Of a stretch of DNA of 57,861 nucleotides, positions 1,076 to 22,133 are shown one piece after another. The position numbers and the translations under genes are program-made. Each line of letters opens with the position of its first letter. Positions within the stretch are counted from its first letter, which is position 1. The stretch is taken from contig JABSQO010000011.1 of the NCBI GenBank assembly GCA_013215775.1, forward strand, positions 1 to 57,861, written 5' to 3'. The notes below the pieces were generated by a model. It searched no databases and was not told the DNA's origin. It saw only the letters and a program-made list of their open reading frames with translations. This DNA comes from Piscirickettsiaceae bacterium (GTDB lineage Bacteria; Pseudomonadota; Gammaproteobacteria; Nitrosococcales; Methylophagaceae).

Positions 1076-2737
1076 TTACTTAACTAACTCAAAATCACTT
1101 GGTGCCCATTCTTTATCAAACCACGGCTGTAATGGGCCATATAAACGCAGCATGCCAAACCACGCCTTACCTGGTGTGGTTTCTGTCCAGTTGGCTTCAG
1201 GTTTTCCCTCTGGCACTTGTGGGCCAAAATACAACGTTACCGAACCATCGTCGTTGTAAACCAATTCATCACGTTTATTATTTTTACTTGGATATTTAGA
1301 ACCACCTGGCACTTGCAGCTCAGAACGTGTTTGTGGATCATAAGCAACGATAGACCAAAAGTCTTGGGCTGGTGGTTCTGCTGGCAACGTTACTTGATAA
1401 CTCTTTTCACCATACAAAATATCGCCATTTTTATCGCCTGTAGCATAAGCATAATTTGAACCAACACCGGGGATTTGTAATGCCATTGCTGGGGTATTTA
1501 CTGTCGCTAAATAGAAGAATAAAGTACGGGCATCCATATTACGTCCGCCATCACCACCGTCTTTGAACCATTGATAGTCAAGTCCAATGAAACCCGTTAA
1601 CCAATGTTTTCCTTCAAAAATAACGGCATTTTCATCACGAGGTTTAAATGCAATACTACGTGCCGTGGCATTACCTACCGCAACCGCTTCGTGTAAAATC
1701 GCTTTAAGACGTGCGTCTGGTTCAAATGGCTTGCCTTTTTGCAGACCAATAGCGGCGGCTTGTCCGCGTAATTCCGGGTCGAGGAAAGATATAGGCTCTT
1801 TTTGTAATACATGCCATAACTCTTCATAAAATTTATAATCATTAGCATGTACCGTATTAAAGTACTTGCCCGAACCATTAACAAATTCCATTTCTGGCGG
1901 GTTTTCAGCTTGATCTAATGGGTATATTTTTAAACCCGTTCTCCACATATTTGAGGCATGATCCGGTTTACCATCTTTCAAGAAGCCTCGTAACAATATT
2001 AAATTGGTATAACTGGTTGATTGGGCAACCCACACTTTTTTACTTTCACCGCCGACCATCACATCAACACGCTGATCGTCTTTTCGATCAGCCATGCCAT
2101 TCTTAGTGACTTCTAAGTCACCCTCATAATCAGGTGGTAAAATAATATACATACCACCTTTTTTAGCATCGGGGCCTGGCGCACCCATATCAACCACAAA
2201 ACGGAAGAAAGCATCATTAACAGTACCGGGACCAGCACCCGCAGGTATTTCTACCACTGTTGCACCATCCTTTTCTAGATCCAACATTGCGGCAGCATAA
2301 ACTGTATCGGTATTGCCGGTTAAAAATAATGGCGCTGAATCCATTAGCTCATCAAAAACAAGTACTTTATGAGAATCATCTATCCCCATAGTTTTCAAGC
2401 CTATACGAAGACCTTCAATTGAGGTTGCTGGGACAAAATTCAAAAACACATCAACACCACGGATAAAATCCAGATTGTCATACACTAAATCAAGCGTTTC
2501 TTGGGTTGGAATACCATCATAAAAATTTAAATCACCGATTCGTGTTTCCACTTTATTCGGTGTCATGATTTCTGCTGGAATGTTGTAATCAAAGCCAGGA
2601 GTTATGGCTCCGTCATTGCTAGACTCCTCACTGACAGTTTCTACCATTGCTGCTTTAGGTGCTTCCGCCTCATCACTGCATCCAATGCTAAATACAATGA
2701 AGAATACTACCAGTACTATGGGTATCGCTTTTCTCAT
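1076..2737 (-). CDS. DUF1254 domain-containing lipoprotein
   Basis: This 553-residue protein has an N-terminal hydrophobic segment and a lipobox ending at Cys20 (SIGC). It is therefore probably an acylated envelope protein. The middle part (GNTDTVYAAAMLDL, near residue 145) matches the usual DUF1254 block. The C-terminal half (DFWSIVAYDPQTRSEL, then KAWFGMLRLYGP) matches DUF1214. Family function is not established. The start is supported by an AGGAG/AAGGGA-rich leader directly upstream. It ends at a strong hairpin terminator and precedes a second, shorter member of the same family. The upstream gene (2842-3120) is about 100 nt away, so a shared transcript is possible but not shown. Confidence 0.88.
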   Translation of the reverse strand: MRKAIPIVLVVFFIVFSIGCSDEAEAPKAAMVETVSEESSNDGAITPGFDYNIPAEIMTPNKVETRIGDLNFYDGIPTQETLDLVYDNLDFIRGVDVFLNFVPATSIEGLRIGLKTMGIDDSHKVLVFDELMDSAPLFLTGNTDTVYAAAMLDLEKDGATVVEIPAGAGPGTVNDAFFRFVVDMGAPGPDAKKGGMYIILPPDYEGDLEVTKNGMADRKDDQRVDVMVGGESKKVWVAQSTSYTNLILLRGFLKDGKPDHASNMWRTGLKIYPLDQAENPPEMEFVNGSGKYFNTVHANDYKFYEELWHVLQKEPISFLDPELRGQAAAIGLQKGKPFEPDARLKAILHEAVAVGNATARSIAFKPRDENAVIFEGKHWLTGFIGLDYQWFKDGGDGGRNMDARTLFFYLATVNTPAMALQIPGVGSNYAYATGDKNGDILYGEKSYQVTLPAEPPAQDFWSIVAYDPQTRSELQVPGGSKYPSKNNKRDELVYNDDGSVTLYFGPQVPEGKPEANWTETTPGKAWFGMLRLYGPLQPWFDKEWAPSDFELVK

Positions 2738-2841: not shown

Positions 2842-3120
2842 CTATCTTCGTGGTCTTCTATCTAAGTCTATGTCAACATCTCTATCAAGATGATCTTCTA
2901 TATCATTTTCTAGGCGGCGGTCTTGACGGCGATCTACACGGCGAACAGTCCCTGTCACTCCCGCTGGGCCAATTAAATTAATATCGTTGTCGTCTGTTGT
3001 TTCTTCAACTGTAGTAACGTTACCATTTTCATCTGTAGTGGTTGTTGTGGTAGTGCTATCAGCAAAACAGACATTTACTGACAGCATTGAAACTAAAGCA
3101 AGATAAAGGTAATTATTCAT
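2842..3120 (-). CDS. small secreted Asp/Arg-rich protein, unknown function
   Basis: The 92-aa product has a Sec signal peptide (cleavage probably after CFA, about residue 20). The mature part is low-complexity: a run of seven threonines, an acidic Glu/Asp stretch, then an alternating Arg/Asp tail (VDRRQDRRLENDIEDHLDRD). I recognise no domain. A GGAG sits 10 nt before the ATG. It follows the 432-aa secreted protein by 58 nt, so the two could be co-transcribed. The extreme composition argues for a periplasmic, possibly ion- or polymer-binding peptide, but that is inference. The frame could be an artefact; the signal peptide plus RBS makes it likely real. Confidence 0.65.
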   Translation of the reverse strand: MNNYLYLALVSMLSVNVCFADSTTTTTTTDENGNVTTVEETTDDNDINLIGPAGVTGTVRRVDRRQDRRLENDIEDHLDRDVDIDLDRRPRR

Positions 3121-3178: not shown

Positions 3179-4477
3179 TTACAATGCTGAGGTATTTTCA
3201 ATCACCTCCCAACCTAAGTTAGTCAAATTTTCACGTGCGAGTGGACTTACACTACCGGTGAAATACATTTCCTGTCCCGTTACCCACTCCAAATTATTGA
3301 CATATTCAGATAATAACTGTGTACTTTTTGCCATCGCTTCAGTCCAAAGCATATAATCCATAGGTAAATTGACAACTACGATATTGTCTTCTGTTACAGC
3401 TGCAACAAATGGCCCTAATTTTGTGAATGTTTTAAGAGGTGCAATATTCCGACTATGACTAGCATACATTTCAGCTTGCACTTGACGGAAATAGGTCACA
3501 TCATAGTGAACTGCATTTGTTGCAGTTTTGATAAACTGTTGACGGCCTTCTGTAGTACTCATTTCAGCCAGCGCATTGACTAAAACAGTTTGTTCTCTAG
3601 GTGTAAAACTCCCATTTGCGATAAATGCATCTGCAGTTGCATCTAAAACACCCATCTTTGTTAATTTTTCTCGATTCATTTTACGAAGGTCTGCCGGTGC
3701 CATATCTGCAATCACCTTATTTAACAGGTTAGTAGCTCCCGTTGTTGTGACAACAGGCCCTGTAAAGGCACCTATGCTCAAGGCTGCAAGCATATTACCG
3801 GTATAGCCAGATTTAGTTAAGCTATCTAGTTGCTCCTGTAACACAAGATTTCGTGAATAGACATCCACATTTAGTTGACTGGCATAATCACGCTTAGTCT
3901 TAGCATAACCTGATAAATCTTCTAGGCGACTTTCTTGATCACTTCTCGCTTGCCCTGTGATATTTTCACCTGCACGTTGAAAAAGCTTACCAACGCCACT
4001 GACCGCACCGCTAAGAGAATCAATAGGGGATGTAATGATATTTTTTACTCCAACAACAACGTCTTTACCTTTTTCCGCCATTCCATCAATGAATTCTTGC
4101 TCTTTACTAATACTTTCTATTTCAGAAATAACATCAAACTCATGTATACGCTTATGAAGTTTTGCCGTAGAAACAACCGTCAATGGCCCATAGGTTGACT
4201 CTATGGTGTAGTGATTCATAAACCCATCATTAAAAACGTTTTCTTTCACCAAATAATTAGAGCCAGTGAGCTCTACATTTGGCACAATCTCTGATGCATT
4301 TAAGACTTGTGAACCCTCAATCTTACCGTATGCACTAGGCGCATTTCCAGCTTGAGACTTAACATAATCCATTGTTCCCTTGGCATCTGTTTTTGAAATA
4401 TCAGCCATAGAAAGCATTGGTACCAAAAGAACCATTCCACACAACATTACTATTTTCTTTAGTTTTAGATTTTTCAT
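3179..4477 (-). CDS. secreted protein of unknown function (432 aa)
   Basis: A signal peptide occupies about residues 1-25 (MVLLVPMLSMA). The rest has no domain I recognise. There is a Gly/Ser-rich stretch around residues 150-175 (SLSGAVSGVGKLFQRAGENI) that could be amphipathic. A moderately hydrophobic segment near residues 230-255 (MLAALSIGAFTGPVVTTTGA) might touch the membrane. The gene starts 34 nt after the stop of the beta-barrel gene 4512-5324 and precedes the small Asp/Arg-rich gene. It is probably the second gene of an operon driven by the motif-bearing promoter near 5381-5400. That context suggests an envelope role. No catalytic motif is visible. Confidence 0.7.
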   Translation of the reverse strand: MKNLKLKKIVMLCGMVLLVPMLSMADISKTDAKGTMDYVKSQAGNAPSAYGKIEGSQVLNASEIVPNVELTGSNYLVKENVFNDGFMNHYTIESTYGPLTVVSTAKLHKRIHEFDVISEIESISKEQEFIDGMAEKGKDVVVGVKNIITSPIDSLSGAVSGVGKLFQRAGENITGQARSDQESRLEDLSGYAKTKRDYASQLNVDVYSRNLVLQEQLDSLTKSGYTGNMLAALSIGAFTGPVVTTTGATNLLNKVIADMAPADLRKMNREKLTKMGVLDATADAFIANGSFTPREQTVLVNALAEMSTTEGRQQFIKTATNAVHYDVTYFRQVQAEMYASHSRNIAPLKTFTKLGPFVAAVTEDNIVVVNLPMDYMLWTEAMAKSTQLLSEYVNNLEWVTGQEMYFTGSVSPLARENLTNLGWEVIENTSAL

Positions 4478-4511: not shown

Positions 4512-5324
4512 TTATTTTGGGAAAAGTAATGTGAATGTCGCATTAAAACCCCAATCTTCTGGGCCACCTGCAGGCGTATCAAGCCAATAGCGCACGCCAC
4601 CACCCACTTGTATTAATTGATCGCCGACTTTTAATAGTTGGGTAACAGTGAGGTTAACCGGCACGGTCCACGCTTCATTTTCCCAATCATAGGTTGATTC
4701 AGTATTCAGGCCGATCGTTGTTTTCGATTTAGTAATATAACTGACAAAAGGCTGTAGAAAGGTTGCACTGATATCAGCACGATCATGATCACCGGCAAAG
4801 GATTCAATATGATTTCCCAGAGCACCAATCGTCCACGGCCCTATTTGTTTAAGCACAACACCTGTCGGCCCCGCCCCCCATTGTTCACCACCGAGTTCAT
4901 TCTCTGTTGCTGTTGGCAGCAGAAATACCGGCCCAACACCCCACACCAAGCCTGAGGATGTCAGTTCTTTCGGCGAGAAGAATAGACTTTGGGTGGTATC
5001 ACCCAACCCTGTTTCACCTTGACCGTTTAATGGAATATTGTCTTGATCAATAATCGGTATGATTGTGCGTGAAATTAAATTCCAACTTTCATTAATAGAA
5101 ATAGGGATAACCGGCTGGATGGTCATCACCACTTGAGAACCGCGATCCTTTAGACCGATATTCTCATCATAGTTGACCTTTATTGGCACACTGATCAATG
5201 AGGCTAATGGATTAGCCAGCTGTTTTGCAAGATCACTTGCGGCATGAGCGGGGAAGTTGAAAAAGCTAATTACAAATATGAAAATAAAAATGGTTTTACG
5301 TGTATTCAACCCCAAAATATCCAT
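4512..5324 (-). CDS. outer-membrane beta-barrel protein (transporter / neuromedin-U-like family)
   Basis: The 270-aa protein has a signal peptide ending in AHA (about residue 28). Its alternating aromatic strands end in a hydrophobic C-terminal strand (FNATFTLLFPK), typical of outer-membrane barrels. The internal text (ISRTIIPIIDQDN, GLGDTTQSLFFSP, WGVGPVFLLPTAT, GGEQWGAGPTGVVLKQ) matches the family usually labelled 'transporter' or 'neuromedin U' in bacterial genomes. The substrate is unknown. It is the first gene of a probable three-gene run (with 3179-4477 and 2842-3120). The leader holds the 20-nt motif also found before two other barrel genes of this region. Confidence 0.78.
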   Translation of the reverse strand: MDILGLNTRKTIFIFIFVISFFNFPAHAASDLAKQLANPLASLISVPIKVNYDENIGLKDRGSQVVMTIQPVIPISINESWNLISRTIIPIIDQDNIPLNGQGETGLGDTTQSLFFSPKELTSSGLVWGVGPVFLLPTATENELGGEQWGAGPTGVVLKQIGPWTIGALGNHIESFAGDHDRADISATFLQPFVSYITKSKTTIGLNTESTYDWENEAWTVPVNLTVTQLLKVGDQLIQVGGGVRYWLDTPAGGPEDWGFNATFTLLFPK

Positions 5325-5380
5325 ATTTTTTTACCTAGTCGAAAAATGAAAAACAGTATGTTACTTTACCTTCACATTAT

Positions 5381-5400
5381 AAACTTAGCATCTCATGCCA
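5381..5400 (-). promoter_or_regulatory. shared 20-nt motif, copy 1 (before beta-barrel gene 4512-5324)
   Basis: The plus strand reads AAACTTAGCATCTCATGCCA. It matches copy 2 at 18 of 20 positions without gaps. The flanks extend it to an imperfect palindrome (TTAGCAT ... ATGCTAA, 5384-5407). It sits 57 nt before the start codon. It is probably an operator or promoter element; the regulator is unknown. Confidence 0.6.
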
Positions 5401-5472
5401 AATGCTAAATGTCTTTTTGTTCCTTATAATTCGTACTCACCACTAATATCAAACTGTAACTATTCATTAAGA

Positions 5473-6663
5473 TTAATTGTGAACATCAAACCCTGGTGGT
5501 GTGAATTTCCAGTCGTAACCTTTAAGACCCATTTGATATCCTAGGTCATAAAGTTTAGTCATATATACTGGGTCAAACCCTTCCGTTGGAACTTCTGTAA
5601 AACTGGCAGGAATGTATGCTAGATTGAAATTGTTACCATCACGTTCACATAACGCATAAATTTGATATAAATCACCAATACCTTGAGTTCGAATTAATGA
5701 GTCAATGGAACGACCAGCAATCGGCATCACGCTACGAGTAACACCATTGTAATCAGGCGCAAGGAATGAGTTTCTAATCACATAAACGTTAGGCTTTCCT
5801 TTTACTTTAAGTTTTTGGGTGATTTTATGCCAATTTATCGCCGCTGGATATACAAATACTTGACTGCCAGTCCCACCATCCACATGCATTTCATCATAAG
5901 ACTGACCATTAACTTCTACTGGAATCATTACTGGTGGGAAAGCGACAGGAATAGCCGAAGATGCTCTCAAAATTTCACGAATAAGATGATGTTTATCTGG
6001 GTAATCACTAATAGCAATTTCTCCAATATTCCAAATAACTGAACGGCCAGCATCTAGATTTACCGTACCAATAAATAACCGTCGACCTTTTTTATATTCT
6101 GTAGCTATAGAGTCAATGATTTCAGAGGTAATGTATTTGGCAAGCAATTTTTTTAATGGTTCAGTATCTGACAGAGAATCCCCTAACAATGCCGATAAGA
6201 GTCCACGCTCTTTGGCAATGTCTGCTGTGCTAGTAGTGGTATAAAGGACCTTTAAGACATCATCGTATTCCGCTCCAAGAAATGCAAATGGTGCCGTCAA
6301 TGCGCCAGTGCTCACACCGGTTACCATAGTAAATTCTGGCCGAGTTCCTAATGCCGCCCATCCAGCAAACAATCCTGCACCAAAGGCTCCGTTTGCCCCT
6401 CCACCTGATATAGCTAAATAGTTGTGGGGTTGTTCATAAATACCAGAGAAATGCTGCTGAAATTCTTCCTCTGAATACTGCTCAAATCTTTCAATACTAA
6501 ATTTTGGCCATTCATCAGCCCAAAACCTTGCTCCGGGAACCCCTGGGATCTCAGCTTGTTGGGTTAAATCTATTGGGAGAATATGTCGCTCAGGAGTATT
6601 AGAACAAGCACTTAGTATCAATAATGATACAAAAATTGCCACAAACTTCATTAGCAGTTTCAT
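5473..6663 (-). CDS. patatin-like phospholipase, lipoprotein
   Basis: This is a lipid acyl hydrolase of the patatin family with the full set of motifs: oxyanion loop GGGANGAFGAG, nucleophile elbow GVSTG (Ser118 in this numbering) and catalytic Asp in DGG (Asp262). A lipoprotein signal (LILSAC) puts it in the envelope. I chose the ATG at 6663 because AGGG lies 8 nt upstream and the product then begins directly with a typical lipoprotein signal. An ATG at 6696 would add 11 residues but has no RBS. It lies 69 nt behind the beta-barrel gene 6733-7503, so the two probably share a transcript. The expected substrates are phospholipids or other acyl esters. Confidence 0.88.
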   Translation of the reverse strand: MKLLMKFVAIFVSLLILSACSNTPERHILPIDLTQQAEIPGVPGARFWADEWPKFSIERFEQYSEEEFQQHFSGIYEQPHNYLAISGGGANGAFGAGLFAGWAALGTRPEFTMVTGVSTGALTAPFAFLGAEYDDVLKVLYTTTSTADIAKERGLLSALLGDSLSDTEPLKKLLAKYITSEIIDSIATEYKKGRRLFIGTVNLDAGRSVIWNIGEIAISDYPDKHHLIREILRASSAIPVAFPPVMIPVEVNGQSYDEMHVDGGTGSQVFVYPAAINWHKITQKLKVKGKPNVYVIRNSFLAPDYNGVTRSVMPIAGRSIDSLIRTQGIGDLYQIYALCERDGNNFNLAYIPASFTEVPTEGFDPVYMTKLYDLGYQMGLKGYDWKFTPPGFDVHN

Positions 6664-6732
6664 CGGTAAAACCCTAGTATGGAATTTATTGAACATCTAT
6701 TGTGAATCTAAATCACTCTTGATGCAACTATG

Positions 6733-7503
6733 TTAAAAAACAACCGTTAACCCTAGCACTGGACCTGACATCTCAACATCAAATAGAAAATCACCATCGT
6801 CATAATCCACTTCTTGATGTCTATAGCCAGCCAAAAATGAGATGCCATCACTATATTGATAATGTAGCCCGCCATATACATCCCAATGTCTATCTGAATC
6901 TCCAGCTACTGCAAAACTACCCGCACCAGATAGATACCAACGTTCATTAAGTGTCACTTGCCCATGGAGGCCAATCAATATATCGATCCATCGTTCTCGT
7001 TCTGAAACCTTTCGTGCTGCCAACGAACCGGCATCCAAATCAAAGGTATTATCTAAATCCCAATGACGCACACCAAGCAAAGCATCCAGCTGATACTGAT
7101 TATTCTGTGTTAATTGATAGCTACCACCTAAGGTCACTACCCATAAGTCTTGCTCATAGTCAGCACCAGAAAAATGAGAGCCCGGTGTATCTACATCCGC
7201 AGATATTCCCACGTGAAATACTTCCCCAATGAAACCAAACCGGCCTTTCTTCGCTTCAAAAAAAACCATCAATGCCATATCAAGGTTTTCGATAATATCG
7301 CTGAATGACACATCAATCTCCGCAGGTGCTGCGGGCGGTATCGTTGCCACATCACCCTTTTGACCTGTCACCCATAAATAAGATGTAAAATAATACTCCC
7401 ACTCCTCATTATTCTCAGCAAGAACACTCACTGGTAATGCAAGTAATGCCAAACATATTATCCACTGAAAGCGAGTGTGAAAATCCGTAGCTGTACGTGA
7501 CAT
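6733..7503 (-). CDS. outer-membrane beta-barrel protein, unknown function
   Basis: The 256-aa product has a signal peptide ending at VLA (about residue 29) and a mature part of alternating beta strands (YYFTSYLWVTGQKGDV, FGFIGEVFHVGISADV, YQLDALLGVRHWDL). The last strand is GPVLGLTVVF and ends in Phe, the usual signature of barrel insertion. Similar proteins are annotated only as hypothetical outer-membrane proteins. It heads a probable two-gene operon with the patatin lipoprotein. Its leader contains copy 2 of the 20-nt motif shared by three barrel genes here. Confidence 0.72.
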   Translation of the reverse strand: MSRTATDFHTRFQWIICLALLALPVSVLAENNEEWEYYFTSYLWVTGQKGDVATIPPAAPAEIDVSFSDIIENLDMALMVFFEAKKGRFGFIGEVFHVGISADVDTPGSHFSGADYEQDLWVVTLGGSYQLTQNNQYQLDALLGVRHWDLDNTFDLDAGSLAARKVSERERWIDILIGLHGQVTLNERWYLSGAGSFAVAGDSDRHWDVYGGLHYQYSDGISFLAGYRHQEVDYDDGDFLFDVEMSGPVLGLTVVF

Positions 7504-7597
7504 TTAAATTTATTCCTAAAAGATATGGGTGATTATTAGTATATTCAAATTAAAGCATGCCTATAGCGAAAATTATGATATATAACCACCGCAAGTA

Positions 7598-7617
7598 AAA
7601 CTTAGCTTTTCATGCCA
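7598..7617 (-). promoter_or_regulatory. shared 20-nt motif, copy 2 (before barrel/patatin operon)
   Basis: The plus strand reads AAACTTAGCTTTTCATGCCA. It lies about 95 nt before the start of the 6733-7503 gene. The flanks make a near palindrome (TTAGCTTTT ... AAAAAGCTAA, 7602-7627). It is the central member of the three copies, 18/20 to each of the other two. Confidence 0.6.
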
Positions 7618-7693
7618 AAAAAAGCTAATTTAATAAACACTGGAAATAGCTTTTGAATCCATACGATATCTTTATATTCAAACAGATACCGCT

Positions 7694-8365
7694 TTATTTT
7701 TTAGCTTTATCAAGACGAGAATGAAAACGTTTAGCATAAAAACGTAAACTCATATCAAGATCTTCCCATGATAATTCATCTTTTTCACTTGCAGATAAAG
7801 ATCGACTTATTCCTGTATCTACCAGCACGCCTAGTCGCTCACCCGTTACTGAATCCAAAATTTCCGCTTCAATACCTGCATCAATAAGTGAGACTCTCTT
7901 CAGTGCATCCGTATTTAAAGCTCCCACAACGAGTCCAATCGGTGTCCAACCTATTAAACCACGTTTTTTCTTCTTCATTTTAATACCGATAATGGCCAAT
8001 CGAATAACCAATGTTTCTGGCCCAGCTTTATTGACGGTAGGATAGTCAGGCGCTAATTCATCAATCAGTATTTGTGCAAAACCATCCCCTATTGCTTTTA
8101 CAACATCTGGTTCGATACCTTTGTATTCAGAATCAGGATGAATCCATATTTCCACAGGTTCTATGAGAACGCTACTATAGCCACTCAAATCTAAATCATG
8201 CTTCACATCAAGATACGCACCCGCTCTATCTGGATCATGCTCCAAATTGAGCTGACCACCTATAAATGCACTTACTGGCATAGATTCTTCAGCAAATGCT
8301 GGCTGCATCACTAAAAAAGCTAAACTAATCGAAAAAATGACACTACCAAACTTACCTACATCCAT
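7694..8365 (-). CDS. DUF3313 domain-containing secreted protein
   Basis: The 223-aa product has a signal peptide (cleavage after AFA, about residue 25). It then has the DUF3313 pattern: SSVLIEPVEIWIHPDSEY, a DELAPDYP block, a basic KMKKKKRG stretch and AEILDSVTGERLGVLVD. The family usually consists of small outer-membrane lipoproteins of unknown role; this copy has no lipobox cysteine. An AAGGGGAA Shine-Dalgarno precedes the ATG. It starts 30 nt downstream of the glycine-zipper gene 8396-8818, so they probably form an operon. A broken paralogue lies at 14223-14385. Confidence 0.85.
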   Translation of the reverse strand: MDVGKFGSVIFSISLAFLVMQPAFAEESMPVSAFIGGQLNLEHDPDRAGAYLDVKHDLDLSGYSSVLIEPVEIWIHPDSEYKGIEPDVVKAIGDGFAQILIDELAPDYPTVNKAGPETLVIRLAIIGIKMKKKKRGLIGWTPIGLVVGALNTDALKRVSLIDAGIEAEILDSVTGERLGVLVDTGISRSLSASEKDELSWEDLDMSLRFYAKRFHSRLDKAKK

Positions 8366-8395
8366 ATTATTCCCCTTAATAAACGCTGATTTCTG

Positions 8396-8818
8396 TTATT
8401 TGACGCTGTAACCCTTAGCTTCTAGACATGCTGCTCGTGCACGAAAATAATCATTCTTTCTTCCTGCGCTTTGGGCTTGTTGATTATCAACACTGGCACG
8501 TCGACCCCTCACTCCTCCTACAACAGCACCAGCAAGTGCCGCATTACCATTATCACCATCAACAATTTCACTAAGAAGTAGACCGCCTAATGCTCCTCTA
8601 ATAGCGCCTCGGGCACCTGTTCCTTGTTCTGCTTCAATATTTTGCTGCGCTCCTGTTGGGTCATATCCCGTTTGTTTTGTGGCCCAACTATGACAGTAAT
8701 ATTCATCTTGTTGTTGCTGTTCAGCAGATTGTCCATTCTCAGGGAATACATACTGTGCTGCTTGGGTATTACCCATAACAAAAATGCTTAAACTTAGTAC
8801 GGCATAGCCTATTTTCAT
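8396..8818 (-). CDS. glycine-zipper (YMGG-like) secreted protein
   Basis: The 140-aa product has a signal peptide (MGNTQAA, cleavage about residue 20). It then has a Gln-rich patch and a Cys/Trp block (DEYYCHSWATKQTGYDP). A glycine-zipper segment follows (GARGAIRGALGGLLL, then GNAALAGAVVGGVRGRR). The C-terminal CLEAKGYSV is typical of this family of small envelope proteins. Glycine zippers tend to insert in or associate with membranes. GGAG lies 7 nt before the ATG, immediately next to the 11-bp tandem repeat, so repeat length changes would alter the leader. The next gene in the same direction is the DUF3313 protein. Confidence 0.8.
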   Translation of the reverse strand: MKIGYAVLSLSIFVMGNTQAAQYVFPENGQSAEQQQQDEYYCHSWATKQTGYDPTGAQQNIEAEQGTGARGAIRGALGGLLLSEIVDGDNGNAALAGAVVGGVRGRRASVDNQQAQSAGRKNDYFRARAACLEAKGYSVK

Positions 8819-9185
8819 TTCATCACTCCATTAATCACAAATTAATCACAAATTAATCACAAATTAATCACAAATTAATCACAAATTAATCACAAATTAA
8901 TCACAAATTAATCACAAATTAATTGTTAGTCAGTTAATAATAAAATTGATTTTTGGTCAACTAAAAAATAAAACGTCAGTATTGCTTTTAGTTTCATCAG
9001 CTTAGTGTAACGCATGTCCACACTTCGAAATAAATTGCTTTTTTACTCATACATAACAGTGCTAAAAAACGTACCACCATTCATTACGTTATGGCAAAGA
9101 TAACTATTTTCCACCTGTCGCCTATACATGTGGCTAATCTCGGTGTACTGTTGGTTAACCTAAGATAATTTTTAGTGCTGGTAGA
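8819..9185. other. divergent intergenic region with tandem repeat
   Basis: These 367 nt separate the divergent glycine-zipper and lytic transglycosylase genes. They contain the 11-bp tandem array at 8830-8924 and AT-rich sequence after it. I see no ORF with an RBS and no convincing sigma70 promoter that I would place with confidence. Confidence 0.6.
8830..8924. repeat. 11-bp tandem repeat, 8 perfect copies plus 7 nt
   Basis: The unit ATTAATCACAA is repeated eight times without a mismatch (8830-8917), followed by ATTAATT. There are no spacers, so it is not CRISPR. The array begins directly next to the GGAG ribosome-binding site of the glycine-zipper gene. Confidence 0.97.
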
Positions 9186-10625
9186 ATGAGTAATAGATTT
9201 CTTTATACATACTTTTTGTTACAGATTTTATGCATCGTGTTACCTGCCAATGCTGTAGAAGAATCTCTAAACGCTGACAGATTAAGTCCCAGCTATCTAT
9301 CTGAACGATATTCCGACGATCTAACTGACTTAAAAAAACGAAAAATAATCCGTGCTCTGGTTGTGCCTGGAAGAACAGATTTTTATGTTAAAGATGGCAA
9401 AATTTCAGGGTTAATGGTTAAACTGTTAGATAATTATGAAAAGGCATTAAACGAAGGTATCAAAAGAGAAGATGACAAAACACGTATTGTTTATATTCCC
9501 GTTGATTTTAACCTTTTAATCCCACACTTACTCGCAGGGAAAGGTGATATTGCAGCGACTTTCCTGACCATTACTGAAGAGCGAGAAAAGCAGGTGAACT
9601 TTGCGTCAGGTCATAGCTTGAAAGTAAATGAGCTGATCGTGACTAATCTCAACAGTGGCATAAACTTATCAACTGTTGATGATTTAGCAGGGGAAAATAT
9701 CTATGTAGTAAAAGGCAGTAGCTATATTGAACATTTGCAGCTTCTAAATATAGCCTTGGCCAAAAGAGGTCTTAAAGCTATCAATATAGTTGAAGCAGAA
9801 ACGTATTTAACCAGTGAAGATATATTGGAAATGGTCAATGCTGGAGCTGTAGATATTACTGTAATAGATGATTTCAAAGCCAAGCTGTGGGGAAAAGTTT
9901 TACCCAATATTAAAATACACAATGATTTGACTATACATGATGCTGGTAGAGTCGGTTGGGCGATCAGAAAAAGTAATCCAGAACTTAAAAAACATATCGA
10001 AGAATTTGCTACATCCATAAAGAAAGGCACTTTACTCGGAAATATACTTTTTAATCAGCATTATGGTCGAGACCAAAAACTTGAGAATTTACAACTCCAT
10101 GAAGAACGTGAGAAATACAGCAAATTTGTCAATATCTTCAAAAAATATGGCGATAAATATAGTATCGATCATTTCAAACTTATTGCTCAAGGTTATCAAG
10201 AGTCAGCATTGAATCAAGATCGAATTAGCCATCGAGGTGCGGTGGGAATGATGCAGCTATTGCCTTCCACGGCAGCAGATAAAAATGTTGCCGTTAAGGA
10301 TATAGACCAACTCGAAAATAATATTCATGCTGGGGCAAAATACATGAATTTCCTAAGAACACGTTATTTTAGCAACCCAGACATTACACCAGAGAATCAA
10401 ATGTTTTTTTCTTGGGCAGCTTACAATGCTGGCCCTGCTAATGTGAGAAAGATGAGAAAGCTAGCGGAAGAAATGGGACTCAATAAAAATATCTGGTTTA
10501 AAAATGTCGAAGTCGCCGCTGGCAGACTGATCGGCACAGAGACTGTCCGATATGTTGCCAATATATATAAATACTACAGTACTTATTTATTATTAGAACA
10601 AAAAGAGGCGCTTGATAATAAGTAA
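9186..10625 (+). CDS. MltF-like lytic transglycosylase with solute-binding domain
   Basis: After a signal peptide (about residues 1-23) comes a periplasmic solute-binding-type domain (residues 50-285; DIAATFLTITEEREKQVNFASG is typical). A C-terminal SLT lysozyme-like domain spans residues 310-460. The likely catalytic Glu339 is in QGYQESALN, followed by HRGAVGMMQLLPSTA and AAYNAGPANV. This is the MltF architecture: peptidoglycan cleavage with formation of 1,6-anhydromuramic ends. The length (479) is close to MltF. It is transcribed alone, divergent from the glycine-zipper gene. The start has only a weak GGTAG nearby. The exact MltF orthology is uncertain, since family members with the same architecture are common as accessory copies. 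Confidence 0.87.
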   Translation: MSNRFLYTYFLLQILCIVLPANAVEESLNADRLSPSYLSERYSDDLTDLKKRKIIRALVVPGRTDFYVKDGKISGLMVKLLDNYEKALNEGIKREDDKTRIVYIPVDFNLLIPHLLAGKGDIAATFLTITEEREKQVNFASGHSLKVNELIVTNLNSGINLSTVDDLAGENIYVVKGSSYIEHLQLLNIALAKRGLKAINIVEAETYLTSEDILEMVNAGAVDITVIDDFKAKLWGKVLPNIKIHNDLTIHDAGRVGWAIRKSNPELKKHIEEFATSIKKGTLLGNILFNQHYGRDQKLENLQLHEEREKYSKFVNIFKKYGDKYSIDHFKLIAQGYQESALNQDRISHRGAVGMMQLLPSTAADKNVAVKDIDQLENNIHAGAKYMNFLRTRYFSNPDITPENQMFFSWAAYNAGPANVRKMRKLAEEMGLNKNIWFKNVEVAAGRLIGTETVRYVANIYKYYSTYLLLEQKEALDNK

Positions 10626-10665
10626 CGCTCCCTCTTGCGTTAGCACACTAAATGATTCGGCAACG

Positions 10666-10701
10666 TTATAAGGGAGCCTATCTAAACAGGCCCCCTTATA
10701 A
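10666..10701. terminator. hairpin between convergent genes
   Basis: A 14-bp inverted repeat with one mismatch (TTATAAGGGaGCCT / AGGCcCCCTTATAA) has an 8-nt loop. It lies between convergent genes and could end both transcripts. No strong T-run follows on either strand, so the terminator call is moderate. Confidence 0.5.
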
Positions 10702-10716
10702 ACCAGCTCTAAACTA

Positions 10717-11301
10717 TTATTTATTAATTCTAGAAATTTTAGTGCCTGTTATACCTAAACCAGCCATTAAACCTGATTGGCCGAAAGTAAAGGCATAAAC
10801 ATCTGCTTGTGCTGTTTCAGTGCTAAGTGTTTTTGCCACACCCGCATCAACAACAACGATCGTCGGACCTACACCCAACTCCCAGTTTTGAGACGTTTCA
10901 ACTTTTTCTACTGCGACATCGGTCATCAATGCCATGACATAACCAAATGTTTGTACGCCAGCTTGCAAGCCATATGATGCAGATTTAAGGCTATAGTATT
11001 TTGAAATATAATAACCCTCGCCACTTGCTCTACGTTTAATCAATGCACCATCACCATATTGGATGCCGATAATAAAACCGGCCTTAGTCACATTAGGAAA
11101 TACAAGCGCGCCTTTAGCAGTAGCAGCGAGCTCTTTTGCTGCTGGCGATGTTTCCAATAGGTGTGTAATGGCAGCATGAATATCACGATCTAAAGCAACA
11201 TCAACAAGCTCATCAGCATTAGCAATCGATGTCACCCCAAAGGTCATCGCTAAAAACAGAAAAACATTGCGGAACTTCATTGTAAATATACTTTTTTTCA
11301 T
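10717..11301 (-). CDS. SYLF domain (Ysc84-type) lipid-binding protein
   Basis: The 194-aa product has a signal peptide (ending SIANA, about residue 29) and one SYLF domain. Recognisable parts are AKGALVFPNVTKAGFIIGIQYGDGALI, YSLKSASYGLQAGVQTFGYVMALM and the end GQSGLMAGLGITGTKI. SYLF proteins bind phosphoinositide-like or other lipids in eukaryotes. In bacteria they are periplasmic proteins of uncertain role. A strong AAGGAG lies 5 nt before the ATG at 11301, which fixes the start. It is monocistronic and convergent with the lytic transglycosylase. Confidence 0.9.
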   Translation of the reverse strand: MKKSIFTMKFRNVFLFLAMTFGVTSIANADELVDVALDRDIHAAITHLLETSPAAKELAATAKGALVFPNVTKAGFIIGIQYGDGALIKRRASGEGYYISKYYSLKSASYGLQAGVQTFGYVMALMTDVAVEKVETSQNWELGVGPTIVVVDAGVAKTLSTETAQADVYAFTFGQSGLMAGLGITGTKISRINK

Positions 11302-11398
11302 AAAAACTCCTTAAATTTTAACGTTGTATAGAACCTAATCGTACTAGTTCTACGAGGCTTGTAGCAAACTGATGTATCCTTTTTTAAAGCATAGAATA

Positions 11399-11599
11399 TT
11401 AATTATTCTGTCGCTTTCTTTTTAATTGATTATCATGCAATTTGGCAAATAACACGATTGATAGCATAGCACCTAAAAGGGCTACCACCACCATATCAGA
11501 TTGTGTATCCCAAGCATATTCTTGAGTGAATAGAAAAGCCTCGGCACTCGCACCTGAAATTATAGCAACCCACCATTCAATAAGCTTATAAAAGCACAA
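11399..11599 (-). pseudogene. C-terminal remnant of a DUF2238 (YjdF-like) membrane protein
   Basis: The 66-codon frame opens with TTG. Its text (LIEWWVAIISGASAEAFLF, WDTQSDMVVVALLGAM, LHDNQLKR) matches the last third of DUF2238/YjdF membrane proteins, which normally have about 200 residues and several membrane spans. An in-frame TAG lies about 40 nt upstream and nothing upstream in this frame resembles the missing part. It therefore looks like a truncated relic rather than a new short gene. It begins 4 nt behind the stop of the beta-barrel gene 11604-12527, so it may still be translated by coupling. Family recognition is from memory of the C-terminal motif. Confidence 0.65.
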
Positions 11600-11603
11600 C
11601 CAC

Positions 11604-12527
11604 TCACCATAAAAAAGACAGGCTTGCTACCAAGGTATCGGTATCTAGTCCTACATCTTCTTGTGTTCGAGTACCAATATAAGCGACTTTAAGTGAATAT
11701 CGTTCTATCGGATAAGTAAAGCTAAGCGCCCAACCAATGTCCTGCTTTTTATCGTCACTGTTGACGCCATTAACACTACTTTCACCACCATAATCGTAAC
11801 CAATACTTAACCCTGCCCACACCCCCGGCCTAAAGGTATGGATAATGTGTCCATGAATGATATACAAAGGCTCCTGTTCTCTTGTTTTACCATTAAAAAA
11901 ATCATCATTATCAGTATGAAATGCAACTTCAGCTGTCAGTTCTGAAGTCCATTTTCCACGCTTATGAGTCACACCAAGTTGCGGTCTAAATACAAGGCGG
12001 TTTTGACCAAGGTTAATCAATTTATCATCCATGTAATCACCTGTTGGTAATCGTATTGCTAATGCGAATCCAATAATAGTTTCAACGTCCGTATTAGCAC
12101 GATATGCAAAGAAGTCTTTGCCAGTTAACGGCGGAGAACCATATAAATTAACAGCTAAACGTAGAAAGCTATCGGATAAACCCTTTCGAGAAATAGAAGC
12201 GGGGCTACCATTAACTAAACCGGTCCATTTTCCTTCTTGGTAGGACTGGCTAAGATCAATTCGTGCAGATTTATCAAACAAACTAAACGTACGAATATAC
12301 TTAGCAGCCCAAGTATGTAGCTCCATATCCACATCTTCCAGCAATATGACAGGATCAACAAAAATATTCGCCTCTGTGTAGGCGTATCCACCTCCAGCAA
12401 AATTTATTCCTATGGGAAGGTGACTCCATCGCAACGGTTCTAACTCCATTGCGTAACTCGAAGGCATAAAACTAATAAAGGTGAAAAATAAAATAATTAA
12501 ACTTTGTTTCAACGCTTTATATCCCAC
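11604..12527 (-). CDS. outer-membrane protein of the phenol MetA/transporter family (PF13557-like)
   Basis: The 307-aa product has a signal peptide (about residues 1-26) and a barrel-like mature part. The opening text LEPLRWSHLPIGINFAGGGY matches the 'transporter / MetA-pathway of phenol degradation' outer-membrane family, as do YIRTFSLFDKSARIDLSQSY, SDSFLRLAVNLYG and FALAIRLPTGDY. The C-terminus (DTLVASLSFLW) ends with an aromatic residue, as barrels do. The family is thought to pass hydrophobic compounds, but the substrate cannot be told here and no degradation genes are near. Copy 3 of the 20-nt motif lies in its long leader. It is followed by the DUF2238 remnant. Confidence 0.8.
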   Translation of the reverse strand: MGYKALKQSLIILFFTFISFMPSSYAMELEPLRWSHLPIGINFAGGGYAYTEANIFVDPVILLEDVDMELHTWAAKYIRTFSLFDKSARIDLSQSYQEGKWTGLVNGSPASISRKGLSDSFLRLAVNLYGSPPLTGKDFFAYRANTDVETIIGFALAIRLPTGDYMDDKLINLGQNRLVFRPQLGVTHKRGKWTSELTAEVAFHTDNDDFFNGKTREQEPLYIIHGHIIHTFRPGVWAGLSIGYDYGGESSVNGVNSDDKKQDIGWALSFTYPIERYSLKVAYIGTRTQEDVGLDTDTLVASLSFLW

Positions 12528-12685
12528 TCCCGCTTATTCTGTAACTATCTTTTCTAAAGAAATTCAGTAGACATTTAAAATGTTCATAATAAATTTTCTT
12601 GCAAACTCTTATTATTGAAAATCCACACTAACCTAAATAATGATATAGAGCCAGTATGGTGACTTATACTCAGATTAAAAATTTA

Positions 12686-12705
12686 AAACTTACCTTTTAA
12701 TGCCA
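12686..12705 (-). promoter_or_regulatory. shared 20-nt motif, copy 3 (before beta-barrel gene 11604-12527)
   Basis: The plus strand reads AAACTTACCTTTTAATGCCA. It is 18/20 identical to copy 2 and gap-free. The flanking palindrome of the other copies is degraded here. It lies about 159 nt before the start codon. Confidence 0.5.
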
Positions 12706-12789
12706 TAAAGATCGCCCATAAACTGCTCGTATTTCTACGAAAATGTACTCAAACGGTTTATCAGGATTTCGGGACTATTAAATATAGAT

Positions 12790-13070: not shown

Positions 13071-13162
13071 AACCTATGGCATTCGGTTAAAACTAAACTA
13101 CACTATTTATTCATTGGTAGCGGGGGCTGGATTTGAACCAACGACCTTCGGGTTATGAGCCC
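13071..13162. repeat. 92-bp direct repeat, left copy (attachment-site-like)
   Basis: It is identical base for base to 22013-22104. It consists of 44 nt flanking the tRNA 3' end and 48 nt of tRNA(fMet) from the anticodon stem to the CCA end. With the right copy it brackets about 8.85 kb. This is the geometry of an element inserted at the 3' end of a tRNA gene. Confidence 0.95.
13115..13162 (-). pseudogene. 3' fragment of initiator tRNA(fMet)
   Basis: The minus strand carries the anticodon loop with CAT, the T arm and the CCA end, identical to the intact tRNA at 22057-22133. The 5' acceptor, D arm and 5' half of the anticodon stem are missing. Sequence diverges sharply after 13162. It cannot make a tRNA and marks the left attachment scar. 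Confidence 0.93.
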
Positions 13163-19661: not shown

Positions 19662-20942
19662 ATGAAACCGAAAATGATTAAGTATTTAATTGCATTTTTT
19701 TTATCAGTATGTCTGAATCATGTTACTGCAGGATCATATGATTACCCCATTTCTGAACCTTATGCAGCGACTGTACTTGGTACGCCACTTAATTTCAGAG
19801 CTACGATATCGAAAAAAGTACTTTCCAACAACCATAAACTCGTGGTATTCCCTAATCGAATAATACCTGAGCTTTTTTGGTATGACGACGGCTTACGTTA
19901 TTCGCTGGCGAAACAAAAAGACAGGGCACCATTAATTTTTATTATTGCTGGAACTGGTGGTAGTCACAACTCGGCAAGGATGAAGTCAATGGAAGGTGCA
20001 TTTTATATGGCCGGATTCCATGTAGTTTTATTATCATCACCAACACATCAAAATTTCATCATTTCTGCATCGGCTACCAGCATACCCGGGCATCTTGAGT
20101 ATGATGCGAAAGATATTTATCACGTCATGCAATTGATCAAGCATAAACACAATGATGAAATAAAAGTTAGTGAGAATTATTTAACGGGTTATAGTCTGGG
20201 AGGCACACAGGCTGCTTTTATATCCAAGTTGGATGAGAAAGAGCAGTTTTTTAAATTCAAGAAGGTGCTCATGATCAATCCGCCTGTGAGCTTGTTTAAC
20301 TCTGTAAACATTCTTGATGAGATGGCTTTTAATAATATTCCCGGTGGGCCGGATAACTTTAAGGCATATTTTGACGATTTGGTGGCGACCTTTGCTGATA
20401 TTTATAAAACTGGAAATGATTTAGGATTTGATGACGATTTTCTTTATGCTGCTTATCTCAATAAGCGGCCGAAGGACACACGCAAAATTGCCGCATTGAT
20501 TGGTGTCTCTTTTCGAATAGCGTTTGCAAACATGGTGTTTACCACGGACGTGATGAACAACTGGGGGTATATTGTTCCAAAAAATCGAGTACTGACGTCA
20601 GGTGATTCATTGACAAATTATTCTATTGTTGCCCATCGCATTACGTTCTTACAGTACTTCAATGAACTGTTGTTTCCATTTTACCAAAGCAAGAATCCCG
20701 ATCTCACACGGGAACAAATGTTACATAAGCTAAGTTTGAAAAGTATTGAGGATTACCTGAAAAACAGTGACAAAATAGGTGTAATGCATAACAGGGACGA
20801 TCTGATTCTGGCTCCAGGGGAGATTGAATATATTCAAGATATATTTCAATCGCGGGCAAAAATTTATCCAAAAGGCGGTCACCTCGGAAACATGGAATAC
20901 ACTGAAAATGTTGATTTCATGTTGGATTTTTTTAATCAATAA
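19662..20942 (+). CDS. secreted alpha/beta-hydrolase-type serine hydrolase
   Basis: The 426-aa product has a signal peptide (about residues 1-23). The alpha/beta-hydrolase core shows an oxyanion region (FIIAGTGGSHNSARMKSM), the nucleophile elbow GYSLGG and a late His (KGGHLGNMEY). A plausible acid is the Asp in MHNRDDLI. The substrate is unknown; an acyl ester or lipid is a fair guess since the next gene is MlaA. The stop codon TAA is itself part of the 7-bp tandem repeat that fills the gap to mlaA. The start has only a weak GGAAAG. The gene lies inside the putative tRNA-fMet island. Confidence 0.8.
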   Translation: MKPKMIKYLIAFFLSVCLNHVTAGSYDYPISEPYAATVLGTPLNFRATISKKVLSNNHKLVVFPNRIIPELFWYDDGLRYSLAKQKDRAPLIFIIAGTGGSHNSARMKSMEGAFYMAGFHVVLLSSPTHQNFIISASATSIPGHLEYDAKDIYHVMQLIKHKHNDEIKVSENYLTGYSLGGTQAAFISKLDEKEQFFKFKKVLMINPPVSLFNSVNILDEMAFNNIPGGPDNFKAYFDDLVATFADIYKTGNDLGFDDDFLYAAYLNKRPKDTRKIAALIGVSFRIAFANMVFTTDVMNNWGYIVPKNRVLTSGDSLTNYSIVAHRITFLQYFNELLFPFYQSKNPDLTREQMLHKLSLKSIEDYLKNSDKIGVMHNRDDLILAPGEIEYIQDIFQSRAKIYPKGGHLGNMEYTENVDFMLDFFNQ

Positions 20943-21003
20943 TCAATAATCAATAATCAATAATCAATAATCAATAATCAATAATCAATAATCAATAATC
21001 AAT
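20934..21003. repeat. 7-bp tandem repeat, 10 perfect copies
   Basis: The unit AATCAAT is repeated ten times, and an eleventh copy (AATCAAA) differs at its last base. The array starts inside the last codons of the hydrolase and ends just before the MlaA start codon. Because 7 is not a multiple of 3 and each unit pair contains TAA, all frames are closed here. Confidence 0.97.
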
Positions 21004-21017
21004 AATCAAATGACATT

Positions 21018-22012: not shown

Positions 22013-22133
<121 letters not shown>

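Follow-up and report, generated by a model that had tools for sequence, protein, structure and literature searches.

A predicted AraC-type operator in front of three outer-membrane protein genes of a Piscirickettsiaceae bacterium

Gene content of the locus

We report on a short element that recurs in a 57,861-bp stretch of DNA from a Piscirickettsiaceae bacterium (contig JABSQO010000011.1 of GenBank assembly GCA_013215775.1), in the following referred to as the window, which is contig C3 of a genome (G000) comprising 2,222,208 bases in 48 contigs. An earlier note on the window had described the element as a 20-nt motif upstream of three minus-strand beta-barrel genes, and all three downstream genes are indeed predicted to encode outer-membrane barrels or barrel-like proteins, each the first gene of a unit (Table 1). 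On our best reading of these sequences, a dedicated activator would switch on the three units, which appear to form a horizontally acquired outer-membrane/lipid gene cluster.

Barrel 1 has no Pfam family; the best match in the PDB of its AlphaFold model (predicted local distance difference test, pLDDT, 78) is 4rl8, a COG4313 outer-membrane channel of Pseudomonas putida. For the protein w3179, encoded next in the same unit, a homolog is located beside DUF1254 and patatin genes in another locus (L104; L and G numbers denote loci and genomes).

Table 1. Coordinates of the predicted operators, the -10-like hexamers and the genes discussed (window positions)
Feature	Position	Strand	Remark
Operator copy 1 (predicted)	5384..5401	-	TTGGCATGAGATGCTAAG
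Operator copy 2 (predicted)	7601..7618	-	TTGGCATGAAAAGCTAAG
Operator copy 3 (predicted)	12689..12706	-	ATGGCATTAAAAGGTAAG
-10-like hexamer TAACAT	5358..5363	-	offset 21-26 from operator 1
-10-like hexamer TATCAT	7575..7580	-	offset 21-26 from operator 2
-10-like hexamer TATAAG	12663..12668	-	offset 21-26 from operator 3
Second DUF1254/DUF1214 gene, cut by contig end	1..928	-	its C-terminal part is found at the right end of contig C6
DUF1254/DUF1214 protein	1076..2737	-	profile search
Small protein without Pfam family	2842..3120	-	homolog is the first gene after the araC promoter in L067
Protein w3179 without Pfam family	3179..4477	-	34 nt after barrel 1
Outer-membrane beta-barrel 1, first gene of unit 1	4512..5324	-	COG4313-like fold
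Patatin-like phospholipase	5473..6696	-	36 nt after barrel 2
Outer-membrane barrel 2, first gene of unit 2	6733..7503	-	weak TIGR04219 outer-membrane protein match, below cut-off
Ysc84/SYLF-domain protein, possibly in unit 3	10717..11301	-	302-nt gap to barrel 3
Outer-membrane barrel 3, first gene of unit 3	11604..12527	-	Phenol_MetA_deg

The repeated element and its 18-bp core

A pattern scan of the window placed the 20-mer at 5381-5400 (two mismatches), 7598-7617 (none) and 12686-12705 (two), all on one strand, while 0.02 matches are expected by chance in a shuffled window and none of 100 shuffles gave three. These copies constitute the sole non-tandem triple of 20-mers within two mismatches of a centre in the window, the remaining groups of this kind being two tandem arrays, and a comparable triple was absent from all of 12 dinucleotide-shuffled windows. 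With up to three mismatches allowed, the 20-mer occurs in the whole genome only at these three sites, all within 7.3 kb, and the reversed 20-mer not at all; the scans thus bear out the three places of the earlier note and did not give the many unlinked hits that it had named as a refutation. The distance from the near edge of the 20-mer to the gene is 56, 94 and 158 nt, which agrees within 1-2 nt with the 57, 95 and 159 nt given before.

We prefer to delimit the conserved unit as 18 bp, TTGGCATGAAAAGCTAAG on the minus strand, for which the leaders become 59, 97 and 161 nt. Using a degenerate 17-mer and at most three mismatches we obtained 102 places in the genome compared to 49 for its reverse. 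The best place outside the window, with one mismatch, is C6:45296-45312 on contig C6 (the C6 site), and among the 27 places that were inspected besides the three window sites this is the exception, the other 26 overlapping an open reading frame (ORF) of 90 aa or more. An 18-mer pattern based on pooled sites (those of the window and others, see below) fits sites 1 and 2 and the C6 site without mismatch and site 3 with one; the only other places with one mismatch, one on C12 and one on C15, both overlap reading frames and have no TANNNT at the offset of 21 nt discussed below. The best motif sites of the genome are hence concentrated in one cluster.

Sites 1 and 2 carry an inverted TTAGC...GCTAA extension (5384-5410 and 7601-7630) in which the spacing of the arms differs, while site 3 has none. 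The palindromes to which the earlier note had pointed are therefore real at two sites, but we left them out of the conserved element because by eye they are missing from site 3, the C6 site and most of the other aligned sites; they look incidental. We likewise dropped the idea of an RNA hairpin at sites 1 and 2, since by eye site 3 has no such stem, and, judged by eye against known motifs, integron-like and other recombination-site readings. In agreement with the earlier note the element does not resemble a sigma54 (-24/-12) site, since GG and GC, which should be 10 nt apart, are separated by 8 nt in the window copies (by eye).

The copies lie close together in the same orientation, two of them with a common inverted extension, as would be expected if they were remnants of a local leader duplication or of a small repeat element having no regulatory role. 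This is barely credible to us: by eye the similarity ends at the edges of the motif, BLAST finds no significant mutual similarity among the three barrel genes (best E 0.66), and other bacteria have the motif at the same spacing.

A candidate regulator gene next to the window

The C6 site is flanked by a Peptidase_C93 (BTLCP) gene and, in divergent orientation, by an AraC-family gene whose homology-supported ATG follows at a distance of about 20 nt. The C-terminal part of the encoded protein matches tandem helix-turn-helix profiles (PF12833, HTH_18, 60.8 bits with a cut-off of 33.6; PF00165, 38.3 bits with a cut-off of 26.6) and its N-terminal half the full PF12625 profile (Arabinose_bd-type, 50 bits, cut-off 27.6), which places the regulator in the AraC/XylS family. 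An AlphaFold model of it, built from two sequences, was poor (pLDDT 47) and was not used.

Contig C6 ends 1.56 kb past araC. On the reverse strand its last residues are those of a DUF1254/DUF1214 C-terminus, GEDGSVTINFGG.. (GEDGSV..), and the window, also on the reverse strand, starts with residues that make up the remainder of such a protein and end ..NINSQFAVAGE. A genome-wide search for DUF1214 (E up to 1) gave three matches, one complete and two complementary parts, with profile positions 23-60 at C3:26-121 and 71-112 at C6:47777-47884. Since one DUF1254/DUF1214 gene thus appears to be split between both contig ends, the right end of C6 and the left end of C3 very probably adjoin, as judged from the split gene and not from reads; the regulator and its putative targets would then be in one cluster, with araC approximately 1.6 kb beyond position 1 of the window. 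Between araC and the split gene there is a gene for a Cys-loop ligand-gated ion channel (Neur_chan_LBD and Neur_chan_memb; 10656-11696 in L157, the locus on contig C6).

Distribution of the cluster in other genomes

Among 28 congener assemblies, several of them incomplete, the AraC gene was found in none (E up to 1e-12) and a relative of the patatin in one, as a fragment; the nearest patatins found (73% and 69%) sit in other families. A scan of a species-genome collection returned 499 patatin relatives, and the 80 best loci among them (1.0 Mb) were retained. By our count, one or more further cluster genes (DUF1254, DUF3313, Ysc84, barrels or small proteins) have a relative in 21 of these 80, loci with only RND or only MltF genes not being included; the record titles of the 21 point to Gammaproteobacteria, Desulfobacterales and other groups. 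As congeners lack the cluster, the nearest patatins are in other families and partner genes recur at patatin loci, we regard the cluster, from gene content, as an acquired set recurring in varying combinations. In 59 genomes of relatives (including G000) the 20-mer gave 13 matches in 12 other genomes, all with three mismatches, which were taken as chance since their contexts look unrelated by eye.

The element in front of araC homologs

With a scoring matrix built from the three window sites alone, the top-scoring place across the 80 patatin loci is TTGGCATGAAAAGTCAAG in L119, immediately upstream of an AraC gene with a patatin gene behind it. In G225 (L067) a 39%-identical AraC gene adjoins relatives of the small protein, DUF3313, the patatin and the MetA barrel, and its promoter carries TTGGCGTAAAAAGATAAG. 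Only seven of the 80 patatin loci have an araC homolog; AraC homologs were also sought in the genomes of 42 of the loci, and 26 gave a match at E up to 1e-15. Rescoring 37 araC promoters with the matrix of the three window sites (from the homolog searches plus L067; four more were dropped as upstream sequence was missing) gave a shuffle p of at most 0.05 for 7 of the 12 with a tblastn E up to 1e-25, four of which had p at most 0.005, and for none of the 25 belonging to homologs with weaker E. Two promoters outside these 37 also have a site, L206 (score 15.2) and the third araC of L070 (E about 2e-19).

When araC promoters were compared by the same matrix with other promoters of the same 23 loci, 7 of 24 versus 2 of 119 reached a score of at least 11 (Fisher 5e-5; rank test 5e-6), and without L067, L119 and L070, the matches of which were known beforehand, 5 of 19 araC promoters did so. 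A first set of other promoters was contaminated, as divergent partners share the araC promoter, and the test given here drops 11 such promoters and the G000 locus. The test misses the L119 site, inside which the longest-ORF start lies, counts L204:8999, located beside an araC pair, as a negative, and omits L141 and L155, whose araC promoters scored low; 20 of the 23 loci were chosen mostly by top E-value, plus G324, when an earlier result was already known. Taken together these data suggest that the motif follows the closer relatives of the C6 regulator.

A real operator might also serve another, unlinked regulator or a general factor, given that the link between motif and AraC-type protein is drawn from sequence alone. 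We consider this very unlikely: the motif is confined to one cluster, it is present in the promoter of araC itself, it tracks the closer araC homologs in unrelated genomes, and among the cluster proteins searched there was no match to another DNA-binding family.

Pooled consensus and further sites

Alignment of 17 sites resulted in the consensus TTGGC[AG][TC]GAAATGNC[AC]AG. The pattern TGGCRYGAAATGNCMAG, with at most one mismatch, gave 29 matches in 15 chosen genomes versus 8 for the reversed control; G000 has no match, as the pooled consensus departs from the sites of this genome. Eight of the 29 were already in the aligned set, leaving 21 new ones (versus 8 reversed), of which 11 precede genes and 10 are in coding sequence (7) or have no clear target (3). 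The 11 targets comprise three DUF1254 relatives, a relative of barrel 1, a relative of the hydrolase-like gene at 19662 in the window, an araC promoter, and five others that by eye encode secreted or porin-like proteins (one of these sites, in L253, is also inside a longer possible frame). All four matches in G447 (titled gamma proteobacterium NOR5-3) are found at 22-82 kb of a 585-kb contig, around its patatin.

Position of the element relative to predicted promoters

We scored 26 sites, i.e. 15 of the 17 aligned and the 11 new ones before genes, for -10-like sequences, with the offset counted downstream of the 18-mer. The mean -10-like score peaks at offset 21 and none of 500 permutations was as high. 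TANNNT is present at this offset in 10 of the 26 sites (4 of 15 aligned, 6 of 11 new) and at offset 22 in four, and at every other offset from 1 to 74 in three at most; none of the 10 look-alikes in coding sequence or without a placed target has it at 21. The choice of these sites was guided by gene context, and a single genome (G407) contributed several. For 15 of them the downstream stretch was already known when the test was made; for the other 11, including the six with TANNNT at 21, it was not. In the window TANNNT at offset 21 fits two of the three promoters, and the hexamers at this offset are TACAAC at the C6 site and CTGCAT in L067. The spacing-independence proposed in the earlier note consequently holds for the distance to the start codon, which is loose, and not for that to the -10-like hexamer, which is fixed.

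With a spacer of 17 nt the -35 hexamer would overlap the final three bases of the motif; for a start of transcription 6-7 nt past the -10 element, the site would be centred at about -41. The peak at offset 21 would accordingly put the motif over the -35 region, which is the position of a class II activator, and the predicted layout (a site over -35 at a fixed distance from -10) is that of a class II AraC-type promoter. Such overlap with -35 is reported for the class II boxes of MarA (PMC6900184) and for motif A of GliR (PMC8151288).

Scanning the leaders for sigma70 promoters gave nothing above shuffles; leader 1 has no sigma70-like match, leader 3 has two on the plus strand, C6 has one, and one more (TTTACT-16-CATAAT) is next to operator 2. 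No terminator-like sites were detected in the scanned leaders. A strict composite pattern, searched in the 80 loci, occurred not once at offset 21 and once each at 20 and 22 (the core alone four times).

An AraC-type protein located over -35 could also block the polymerase, and directly after operator 1 there is a TATAAT word that the bound protein might cover; the same protein could therefore own these operators and act as a repressor, or be silent. We judge this unlikely, since TANNNT enriched at one offset together with a non-consensus -35 overlapping the site corresponds to the class II activator layout, as reported for MarA (PMC6900184) and GliR (PMC8151288).

Neighbouring features of the window

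At 9186-10625 a plus-strand gene is found within the minus-strand cluster and encodes a solute-binding domain joined to a lytic transglycosylase domain, a layout that we take to be MltF-like. About nine head-to-tail copies of an 11-nt unit, ATTAATCACAA, occupy 8830-8927 in the leader of gene 8396-8818; their copy number could vary and affect expression of this gene. An array of the 7-nt unit TAATCAA is present at 20933-21009, between gene 19662-20942 and an MlaA gene.

A perfect 92-nt direct repeat (13071-13162 and 22013-22104) has as its right copy the 3' part of an intact tRNA-Met gene (22057-22133) and as its left copy a tRNA fragment, and the two copies enclose 8.85 kb in the manner of an integrated island. 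Of six proteins searched in this segment, four correspond to UPF0114, an ACR_tran pump, an HlyD-type adaptor and MlaA and two have no match above cut-off; there is no integrase among them. Gene 19662-20942 is also in this tRNA-bracketed segment; its relative in L260 (G420) is preceded by the pooled operator with TATTAT at offset 21, and in the window no such operator ranks near it.

Discussion

With a candidate regulator, an exactly defined operator and predicted promoters, the bare 20-nt repeat becomes a regulon that can be tested. Most likely TTGGCATGAAAAGCTAAG is the binding site of the candidate AraC-family activator (PF12625 and HTH_18) encoded on C6, which would control the three units. 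In the earlier note the element had been proposed to be the operator shared by a local envelope regulon with the patatin operon as a member, and the clustering of the best sites together with the finding of a cognate AraC-type regulator lends support to this proposal.

As to mechanism, one AraC-type protein would bind each site as a single unit and recruit the polymerase to a promoter with a poor -35. It would sense a compound, probably hydrophobic or lipid-like, and then activate barrel 1-w3179-DUF1254, barrel 2-patatin and the MetA barrel (possibly with Ysc84), in addition to acting on its own divergent promoter region. The steps we infer are the adjacency of the contigs, the binding of the protein to the sites, its contact with RNA polymerase where the -35 is poor, and the switching-on in response to a compound.

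Several observations weigh against this interpretation. A longer, GTG-started araC frame (L157 9280) would, if true, enclose the C6 site. In the best 80 patatin loci the leaders of the homologs lack the motif, the araC promoters of L119 and L067 excepted; 5 of the 12 closer and all 25 of the more distant araC promoters have no site at p 0.05, 17 of 24 score below 11, and the araC of G430, the closest after that of G225, has none in the 300 nt upstream. Moreover, 12 of the 26 scored sites have TANNNT at neither 21 nor 22, and the L067 site does not have it at 21. A lack of conservation in orthologous leaders, which the earlier note would have regarded as a refutation, has no bearing within the genus, where the cluster is absent; in other families most homologous leaders lack the motif, whereas the closer araC promoters often do carry it.

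Tentatively, the system may be part of a wider module, moving horizontally in Proteobacteria and beyond and not characterised before, which would consist of an AraC-type activator and the code TTGGC[AG][TC]GAAATGNC[AC]AG, 20 nt, TANNNT, with DUF1254/DUF1214 proteins, COG4313-type channels, patatins and other secreted proteins as targets, and would probably act in the uptake and cleavage of hydrophobic compounds. At the level of listings, we found no earlier report of this link between regulator, operator and module in the open-access literature searched. The signature is searchable and links families of unknown function (DUF1254, DUF1214 and DUF3313) with patatins and outer-membrane channels, and the inducer of the regulator, once found, would tell the purpose of these gene sets.

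Comparison with known AraC-type systems

Compared by profile score, the best NCBIfam match of the C6 regulator is QhpR (NF049968), with 125 bits over residues 58-322, i.e. half of the equivalog cut-off of 250; against GliR it scores 68 bits, the equivalog cut-off being 570. The C6 regulator is therefore assigned to neither equivalog.

Three regulators of Pseudomonas aeruginosa share traits of the predicted system. VqsM has a single asymmetric 15-bp site with a consensus ending CGGCCA, which is TGGCC on the other strand, but unlike the local regulon predicted here it has 48 genome-wide loci in chromatin immunoprecipitation sequencing (PMC4176358). Motif A of GliR (PA3027), YYGGCGHTDTYSGMC, starts with the same YYGGC, one of its sites begins TTGGCATG, the motif overlaps -35 in PA3026p, and glycerolipid genes are involved (PMC8151288); the right half of our motif differs.

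SphR, the AraC-family regulator of sphA, sphBCD and cerN, responds to sphingosine, and its regulon includes a ceramidase and a porin related to meta-pathway phenol degradation proteins (PMC3900636). The likeness consists of an AraC-type regulator having a very small regulon with such a porin, and of a SphR half-site that begins TGNCC (PMC3900636). In contrast, SphR sites as described there are two direct repeats 6-8 bp apart, and no second direct repeat at a common offset was present in 15 of our sites; the pathway genes also differ, and nothing here points to sphingosine as inducer. From the analogy with SphR and from the lipase, Ysc84 and channel genes of the cluster, a hydrophobic inducer is a reasonable guess and no more. 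By this comparison the predicted system is a local AraC regulon of a known kind, in which the operator and its spacing are unusually clean.

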